In this document: one piece after another, positions 26,121-63,890 of the stretch
Position numbering within the stretch: the stretch's first letter is position 1
Layout: the number at the start of each line of letters is the position of its first letter
Assembly (NCBI RefSeq): GCF_036429475.1
Contig: NZ_CP144125.1
Location: 2,480,001-2,544,000, forward strand
Length of the DNA stretch: 64,000 nt
Reading direction: 5' to 3'
Source: Halalkalicoccus sp. CGA53
Lineage (GTDB): Archaea; Halobacteriota; Halobacteria; Halobacteriales; Halalkalicoccaceae
Notes under the pieces: generated by a model
What the model was told of the DNA's origin: nothing
Database searches by the model: none
Seen by the model: the letters and a program-made list of their open reading frames with translations, nothing else
Made by a program: the position numbers and the translations under genes

Positions 26121-26444
26121 ATGTACCGACGGAGATACCTTCTCGGGATAGCAGCGACGGCGGCGCTCGCCGGCTGTAGCGACGACGAGCCCGACGGACC
26201 GGACGACGACCCGGAGGACCCCGACGACGGGGACGCCCCCACGGACGACGAGGACGACGCGCTCGACGACGGTGAGGATGCCGTCGACGACGCCGAGGAG
26301 GTCGACGACGACCCCGAAGAAGTCGAGGACGAGGAGACCGGCGAGGGGGAAGAAGAGGACGAGGACGAGGAACCCGCCCACGACGACCTCGAGGACGACG
26401 ACCCCGACGACGAGGAGGAAGAAGAGGAAGACGACACGTACTGA
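26121..26444 (+). CDS. Tat-type lipoprotein with extreme acidic tail
   Basis: The 107-aa protein starts MYRRRYLLGIAATAALAGCS, giving a twin-Arg signal with lipobox LAGC, so it is exported and lipid-anchored. The roughly 88 residues after the cysteine are almost entirely Asp, Glu, Pro and Gly, without a single Lys or Arg. No fold is expected; it may be a disordered surface polyanion. Its stop codon lies inside the left terminal repeat of the adjacent inverted-repeat element, so the original 3' end may have been altered by insertion. Confidence 0.6.
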   Translation: MYRRRYLLGIAATAALAGCSDDEPDGPDDDPEDPDDGDAPTDDEDDALDDGEDAVDDAEEVDDDPEEVEDEETGEGEEEDEDEEPAHDDLEDDDPDDEEEEEEDDTY

Positions 26445-26544
26445 TAGGGATCGTCGTATGAGTTCGTAGTTCTTCGATTTCCGATCGAACGACGTCGGTG
26501 ACACACGTACCCGAGATCGGGTCGGCTACGACGATCCCTACCAG
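26441..26544. mobile_element. MITE-like inverted-repeat element, copy 1 (104 bp)
   Basis: The ends are imperfect 18-bp inverted repeats, CTGATAGGGATCGTCGTA on the left (26441-26458) and its complement with one change on the right (26527-26544). The interior of about 68 bp is alignable to a second copy at 63785-63890. It contains no transposase. The left repeat supplies the TGA (and a TAG) that ends the lipoprotein gene. Confidence 0.65.
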
Positions 26545-33924: not shown

Positions 33925-35079
33925 ATGGAGTTCGGACTCACCGAGGAGCAGGAGGCCGTCCGCGAGGAGATCAGGCGCTTCGCGGAGAACGAGATCGCGC
34001 CCGTCGCGAGCGAGCACGACGTCGCCGAGAGCTACCCCCAGGAGGTGATGGACGCCGCCGCGGAGATGGGGCTCACCGGCGCACACCTCCCGATGGAGTA
34101 CGGGGGTGCCGGCTACGACCCCGTCGAGATGGCGATGATAACCGAAGATCTGTTCGCCGTCGACCCCGGCATCGCGCTCTGTATCACCTCCGCCGCGTTC
34201 GGCGCGGACGCGATCATGGAGTTCGGCACGGACGAGCAGAAAGAGCGGTATCTCGAACCGATCGCCACCGGGGAGGCGGTGATGGGCACGGCGATCAGCG
34301 AACCCGACACCGGTTCGGACGTCTCCTCGGTCTCGACGACCGCCGAGAAAGAGGACGACGAGTGGATCATCGACGGAAACAAGATGTGGATCACGAACGG
34401 TTCCGTGGGCGAGTACTTCGTCGTGATGTGTCTCACCGATCCGGAGGTCGAGGATCGCTACTCGGGGTTCTCACAGATCCTCGTCGAGTCGGATCGGGAG
34501 GGGTTTTCGGCCGAGAAGATCACCGGGAAGCTCGGGATCAGGGCCTCCGATACGGCCGAACTCCGCTTCGACGGCGTCCGGGTACCGGAGGAGAACCTGA
34601 TCGGCACCCGCGGGATGGGATTCCTCCAGCTGATGCAGTTCTTCGACGAGACACGGACGATGGTCGCCGCACAGGGCGTCGGCATCGCGAAGGGCGCCTG
34701 CGAGCGTGCCCTCGAGTACGCCACCGAACGCGAGCAGTTCGGCCGCTCGATCTCGGAGTTCCAGGCGATCCAGCACAAGCTCGCGGAGATGCACACGGGG
34801 ACGGAGGCGGCGCGCAACCTCACGTACAAGTCGGCGTGGGCGGTCGAGAACGAGGGCGGAGAGCTCACCGCGCTCGCCTCGATGGCCAAGGAGTTCGCCT
34901 CGCGGGTCGCCGTCGAAGTCGCCGACGAGGCGGTCCAGATCCACGGCGGGGCCGGCTACGTCAACGACTTCGACGTCGAACGTCTGTACAGAGACGCGAA
35001 GATCACCCAGATCTACGAGGGGACGACGGAGATCCAGAAAAACATCATCGCGCGCGAACTGCTCGGCAAGGGCTTCTGA
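33925..35079 (+). CDS. Acyl-CoA dehydrogenase
   Basis: The 384-aa flavoenzyme carries out the first oxidation of beta-oxidation. It starts [20 protein letters not shown]. Signatures are [20 protein letters not shown] and [20 protein letters not shown], with [20 protein letters not shown] containing the catalytic Glu region. The adjacent divergent fused dehydrogenase/hydratase gene completes a fatty-acid degradation unit. The electron acceptor ETF is not nearby. Confidence 0.93.
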
Positions 35080-35127
35080 TAGGGAGTATCGTAGTCGACC
35101 GAAGATCTCGGAGTTCGAATCGTGATC

Positions 35128-35229
35128 ATGGTCGTCGTCGCCACCGGCTTCGCCGTGATATTCGCGTGGTGGAGCGGGTTCGCCGAGGCGGGGGTCGGTG
35201 AGCCGGCGGAGTCCCCGATCCGTGGCTGA
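35128..35229 (+). CDS. Small membrane peptide with in-frame continuation after TGA
   Basis: The 33-aa frame MVVVATGFAVIFAWWSGFAE ends at TGA (35227-35229). The same frame then continues LVVLFVLVVAWRRFAAMDVS for a second hydrophobic helix. The two helices look like one two-TM protein interrupted by a single stop (a TGG-to-TGA change would do it). It may be a pseudogene. It lies just after the acyl-CoA dehydrogenase gene. Confidence 0.35.
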   Translation: MVVVATGFAVIFAWWSGFAEAGVGEPAESPIRG

Positions 35230-63680: not shown

Positions 63681-63791
63681 ATGTCAGACACCCCCGACGA
63701 TCTCAGTTCGACACCGGTCTCTTCCTGTTGGTTCTCGATCCGCTATCCGTTCACCCCGTCACCCGAAGTGGCCTCGGTGGGGTTCTCATAG
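63681..63791 (+). CDS. Possible 36-aa peptide truncated by an inverted-repeat element
   Basis: Reads MSDTPDDLSSTPVSSCWFSI, ending SVGFS. A promoter-like TTTATACTAG lies upstream. Its TAG stop is part of the left repeat of the element at 63785, so the gene may once have been longer. Low confidence because of size and Ser/Pro bias. Confidence 0.3.
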   Translation: MSDTPDDLSSTPVSSCWFSIRYPFTPSPEVASVGFS

Positions 63792-63890
63792 GGATCATCG
63801 TAGAAGTTCATACTTTCTCGAACGCGAATCGAGCGACGTCGGTGGCGTGTAAGCCTGGGAGATCCAGTCGGCTACGACGATCCCTATCAG
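63785..63890. mobile_element. MITE-like inverted-repeat element, copy 2 (106 bp)
   Basis: The right end (63873-63890) is, in reverse complement, identical over 18 bp to the left end of copy 1, CTGATAGGGATCGTCGTA. The left end CTCATAGGGATCATCGTA differs by two bases. The interior aligns along its length with copy 1, including GCGACGTCGGTG. No transposase inside. Stops of both flanking frames fall in the repeats. Confidence 0.65.

Follow-up and report, generated by a model that had tools for sequence, protein, structure and literature searches.

A short, multi-copy inverted-repeat element of haloarchaea that duplicates TGA and is concentrated at stop codons

Two element copies and a probable remnant in a 64-kb window

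The window analyzed here is a 64-kb stretch of the home genome G000 (C2:2480001-2544000), and it contains two copies of a short element with terminal inverted repeats (TIRs), together with a probable remnant of a third (Table 1). The original prediction had placed two copies at 26441-26544 and 63785-63890, and both are present at these coordinates with the ends proposed for them. The predicted repeat is real but its length of 18 bp is not, as the first four letters are target, consisting of a C and a 3-bp target-site duplication (TSD). The triplets flanking the element on the left and right agree with each other (TGA with TGA, TCA with TCA) and not with an inverted repeat, and the element proper is therefore TAGGGATCRTCGTAG…CTACGAYGATCCCTA, about 98 bp long with TIRs of 15 bp, plus a 3-bp duplication. 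The outer CTGA/CTCA letters thus correspond to a duplicated TGA in a CTGAG-like site and lie outside of the element. At 96-98 bp the element is too short for a gene and has no coding capacity, and there is no partner gene near the copies.

The lipoprotein frame upstream of copy 1 has a coding score of 58.7 with 161 open codons, and ends exactly on the TSD. Copy 2 is located in intergenic DNA and belongs to a recent subfamily, being 99% identical to a copy at C2:3191311 and 96% identical to one at C2:2643603, with unrelated flanks. Two short frames end at copy 2, a plus frame with a TAG stop and a coding score of -2.9, and a minus frame with a TGA stop and a score of 5.2 over 38 codons, and neither is probably a gene. 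Of three stop codons that the element had been proposed to supply, the one at 26444 therefore stands, in a coding-biased lipoprotein frame, whereas those at 63791 and 63887 close frames whose coding bias is weak or absent.

A further segment (35077-35138) is probably a decayed third copy. Its TGA is the stop codon of an acyl-CoA dehydrogenase-like gene, and the match (at 35076) has three mismatches to the 18-mer and scores 18.4 bits with the sequence model, a weak value genome-wide (E=0.006). The variant end TAGGGAGTATCGTAG is also present in an intact copy, L105, of genome G004. Allowing up to three mismatches, the 18-mer has five matches in the window against 0.05 expected, and none of 100 shuffled sequences reaches five.

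Table 1. Coordinates of the element copies and adjoining features in the window.
Feature	Coordinates	Strand	Details
Small acidic lipoprotein gene (MYRRRYLLGIAATAALAGCSDDEP...DDTY)	26121-26444	+	From ORF list and coding score; longest ORF starts at GTG 26025
TSD upstream of copy 1	26442-26444	+	TGA, the lipoprotein stop codon
Element copy 1	26445-26540	+	96 bp; TIRs 26445-26459 and 26526-26540
TSD downstream of copy 1	26541-26543	+	Decayed to CCA
Probable third-copy remnant	35077-35138	+	TGA stop 35077-35079, then TAGGGAGTATCGTAG 35080-35094; right end lost
TSD left of copy 2	63786-63788	-	TCA (TGA on the minus strand)
Element copy 2	63789-63886	+	98 bp; TIRs 63789-63803 and 63872-63886
TSD right of copy 2	63887-63889	-	TCA/TGA, intact

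Copy number and distribution

The repeat is not limited to the window, and searches of the home genome (4.04 Mb) and its relatives reveal a family of elements. With copy 1 as query the home genome yields about 30 copies, and about 63 are identified by a sequence model derived from 28 copies. Many copies are also detected by this model in two congeners (G001 and G002), with fewer elsewhere in the family. In 392 genomes from the order, an exact match to the 15-base end is almost restricted to the genus. Other families have elements of the same length with slightly different ends and other interiors. A broader model (E<=1e-5) has matches in at least 47 of 293 genomes and at least 24 of 87 sampled haloarchaeal genera, counts that are lower bounds as few candidates were scored per genome. 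Relatives were also found by blastn on named plasmids of Natronosalvus, Halorarius, Halomarina, and Natronorubrum, and in partial and weak form in Haladaptatus. The occurrence of the element across haloarchaea is thus wide but patchy. Viral contigs contain 22 exact matches to the 18-mer, none of which has a partner end at element distance, and we therefore take these to be chance matches; no element was found in the phages searched.

Target, ends and interior

The anticipated target-site duplication was found as TGA/TCA throughout the genus, in a target conforming to [A/T]C-TGA-G[A/T]. Among 131 pooled copies (from G000, G001, and G002, together with two of G004), the TSD pair read on the TGA strand is TGA/TGA for 67, with TGA/CGA the next commonest (23 copies). 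A TA duplication in the style of IS630 and a 5-bp duplication of CTGAG were both considered and are ruled out, as each empty site contains a single TGA and lacks TA. In Natrarchaeobius chitinivorans three near-identical copies (L303, L310, and L318) lie between ACT duplications rather than TGA, suggesting that the mobilizer accepts a second 3-bp target format.

Within the interior, a central box, RAYCGA..GAC (alignment positions 42-52, RAYCGA....AC), is conserved across genera and the rest is variable; the box may be a binding site. One copy, L145 (C2:2863005-2863190), is enlarged to about 186 bp by added internal sequence.

Mobility and empty sites

Several subfamilies contain copies that are 96-99% identical to each other at unrelated places, which indicates recent movement. 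Two empty sites are informative. A copy in L248 of G001 is missing from G000, where the sequence reads ..GCGAACTAC TGA ACCC.. (..CTAC-TGA-ACCC..), and G002 lacks the G000 copy at 1162116, with ..TTCGGC TGA GAACC.. in its place; each empty site has a single TGA and is otherwise collinear. Other insertions are common to the congeners and are therefore old. With multiple copies, TIRs, a TSD, clean empty sites, and no coding capacity, the element behaves as the mobile, MITE-like element that had been predicted. It had also been argued that mobility would be undermined if orthologous loci lacking the element had identical gene ends and bore no insertion scar; the gene ends are indeed the same, but the insertions are not free of scars, the duplicated TGA being one.

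At two orthologous stop codons the element is present in opposite orientations in two species, namely at that of a probable guaA gene (C2:687332 in G000 and L270 in G002) and at the one at C2:25738 in G000 and L229 in G001. Either the same site was hit independently in each pair, or the element was inverted.

Position in stop codons

Using one fixed criterion, with coding ORFs judged by codon bias trained on the window, 83 of the 131 copies (63%) provide the exact in-frame stop codon of a coding ORF, and the suspected bias for gene ends is thus borne out. The stop is on the upstream TSD triplet for 74 of these, and for the other nine it is a TAG in an element end, either the initial TAG of the element where the TGA has been lost (six copies) or the TAG at the inner repeat end (three copies). 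Both orientations relative to the gene are represented (39 and 44 copies). The C-termini of the host genes resemble those of ordinary complete proteins, and from them we tentatively take some of the products to be GMP synthase, aspartate kinase, and pyrophosphatase. Copies in other families often coincide with the ends of coding ORFs too, and in public annotations a chemotaxis protein gene of Natronosalvus amylolyticus and a dihydrolipoyl dehydrogenase gene of Natronorubrum aibiense both end on a TGA at the element.

Truncation of genes by the element, the other possibility raised at the outset, is not what we observe, as orthologues lacking the element have the same stop position and the duplication regenerates the upstream TGA. 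Because the TSD is TGA and the element starts with TAG, the protein stays intact when a TGA stop codon receives an insertion, and a tandem TGA-TAG stop is created. Where the first TGA has later mutated to CGA, the TAG of the element takes over as the stop codon.

The two copies of the TSD differ in their decay. Among TSD pairs with a single CGA, the downstream triplet is the changed one in 23 (TGA/CGA) and the upstream triplet in one (CGA/TGA), a pattern that fits with survival of stop-codon insertions. Decay of the downstream triplet is almost exclusively T to C (TGA to CGA, 23 copies); neither TGG nor TAA was observed, and most upstream losses likewise give CGA. The change from TGA to CGA also removes an ATG formed by CCCTA and TGA, and may reflect either mutation bias or selection.

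Probable retention at stop codons and alternative explanations

In 384 kb of the home genome, three quarters of the CTGAG sites are inside genes, where copies are almost never found. By the criterion used for the copies, 34 of 78 non-genic CTGAG sites (44%) are stop codons; this figure replaces an earlier gene-caller background of 31%, such that the raw bias is weaker but the contrast with age stays. When a copy is classed as recent if its nearest relative is at least 90% identical, 20 of 44 recent copies (45%) are at stop codons, no different from the background, compared with 63 of 87 older copies (72%; binomial p=9e-8 against background, and p=0.004 for recent against old), although gene calls and age, taken as nearest-neighbor identity, are both proxies and the set of 131 includes a few sites shared by descent, so that its members are not wholly independent. 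The trend is evident in G000 (6/19 recent and 33/44 old copies at stops, p=0.002), whereas G001 by itself shows no significant difference (12/23 and 14/24, p=0.77). With rank tests the effect is weaker (p=0.018 for the pooled identities), and significance is not reached in any genome taken alone. As recent copies match the background and older copies exceed it, the bias reads as survival rather than aim.

We therefore favor the interpretation that these are non-autonomous, MITE-like DNA elements that are mobilized in trans and whose concentration at stop codons builds up by retention, to which we assign a probability of roughly 80%. Insertion is into CTGAG-like targets and duplicates TGA, and a DDE-type transposase presumably acts in trans to move the element. 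Insertions in coding sequence would be lost, and those in stop codons, as the least harmful, would persist the longest and so accumulate. The competing explanation is that the mobilizing machinery favors stop codons or the ends of genes in their own right, a safe-harbor strategy that could operate through, for example, transcription termination or translation-coupled DNA exposure. Such targeting would account for the 63% of copies lying exactly in stop codons, and for the two orthologous sites occupied in opposite orientations, as if hit twice. We consider it unlikely, however, as recent copies show no excess over the non-genic CTGAG background (20/44 against 44%), several of them, including copy 2, are intergenic, and chance would produce roughly two such coincidences given an estimated 300 or so CTGAG stop codons per genome. 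A further reading, in which the CTGAG target and TGA duplication of an order-wide family constitute an evolved safe-harbor strategy, with a mobilizer tuned to a common context of stop codons, every insertion restoring the stop codon that it enters and bringing the TAG as a backup, is a tentative proposal that we doubt, but with somewhat less conviction.

Two further explanations were weighed. The element could be a domesticated 3'-end element, kept as a transcription terminator, an mRNA-stabilizing hairpin, or a roadblock, in keeping with the persistence of old copies at stop codons, the potential of the TIRs to pair over 15 bp, and the conservation of the central box across genera. The stem pairs, however, decay one-sidedly with almost no compensation: pairing of the TIR arms is 89.8% compared with 88.4% when shuffled, the excess coming mainly from one subfamily position (columns 13/96), six stem pairs are changed on both sides compared with 5.1 when shuffled, and neither the RNAalifold consensus nor the pair counts reveal real compensation. 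The arms thus decay nearly independently, as DNA ends do, arguing that an RNA hairpin is not being kept. In addition, many copies are intergenic, those at stop codons are in both orientations, empty sites at orthologous genes show that the element is dispensable, and an Rfam search with both window copies returned no matching family, all of which make a 3'-end role improbable, more so than targeting. The short length, mostly intergenic location, palindromic ends, and high copy number also suggest a functional RNA, or a palindrome of the REP/BIME kind mobilized by a Y1 (REP-associated) transposase. This we find barely credible given the 3-bp TSD, the precise empty sites, and the lack of maintained pairing; such a TSD is not known from REP elements.

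A target that is equal to a stop codon, combined with a 3-bp duplication, renders insertion silent at the protein level, a simple rule by which dozens of insertions can be accommodated in a compact genome. The roughly 60 copies per genome, the matched empty sites, and the gradient of ages make the family a natural system in archaea for telling a bias of insertion from one of survival. For annotators, many 3' gene ends in these genomes adjoin a mobile element, and the family itself points to a transposase acting on it.

Search for a mobilizer and relationship to known elements

An insertion sequence with the same ends, which the prediction had led us to look for, was not found in the home genome among matches to DDE_Tnp_1, DDE_Tnp_1_2, and DDE_3 or among unpaired TIR matches. 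None of 15 DDE_Tnp_1 matches has the ends of the element, no DDE_3 locus has matching ends, DDE_Tnp_1_2 is absent, and there is no unpaired strong TIR match, the strong paired ends all belonging to short copies. The viral and genome-contig loci examined contain no autonomous transposon sharing the TIR. The behavior is MITE-like, and we do not assign the element as a MITE of a particular IS.

IS1031-type elements of the IS5 superfamily have a TNA target duplication, and the 3-bp TNA-type duplication here is similar, the TSD format being the only link. No such IS with TAGGGATC ends was found in the home genome, and some of the Natrarchaeobius copies have ACT.

Prokaryotic MITEs have been reviewed (PMC10969869), and those of haloarchaea described (PMC3119063). 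The elements reported here resemble them in being short, lacking a transposase, and having TIRs, a TSD, many copies, recent subfamilies, and empty sites, but differ in that no parent IS was found, the TSD is a fixed TGA in CTGAG, and the majority of copies are in stop codons. The text of the review does not mention stop codons, and in the openly accessible literature we found no haloarchaeal element described as living in them. RUP, Correia/NEMIS, and similar elements are about 100 bp long, have TIR ends with TA, and have been proposed to depend on an IS transposase supplied in trans (PMC2229807); their target is TA (RUP being of the IS630 type), whereas in the present element TA is internal and, as the empty sites show, the duplicated triplet is TGA.

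The nearest described elements, compared by description only, are the SMR-A repeats of Haloquadratum walsbyi (HqIRS42/43/55), which measure about 110 bp, have prominent inverted repeats, and number up to 54 per genome (PMC3119063). They have no related transposon and their mobilization was called enigmatic; they are reported to lack a target duplication and to hit palindromes of PATEs and IS605-type elements (PMC3119063). The likeness is in size, prominent inverted repeats, copy number, and the lack of a related transposon, and the difference is that the elements reported here generate a 3-bp duplication at CTGAG targets that include stop codons.
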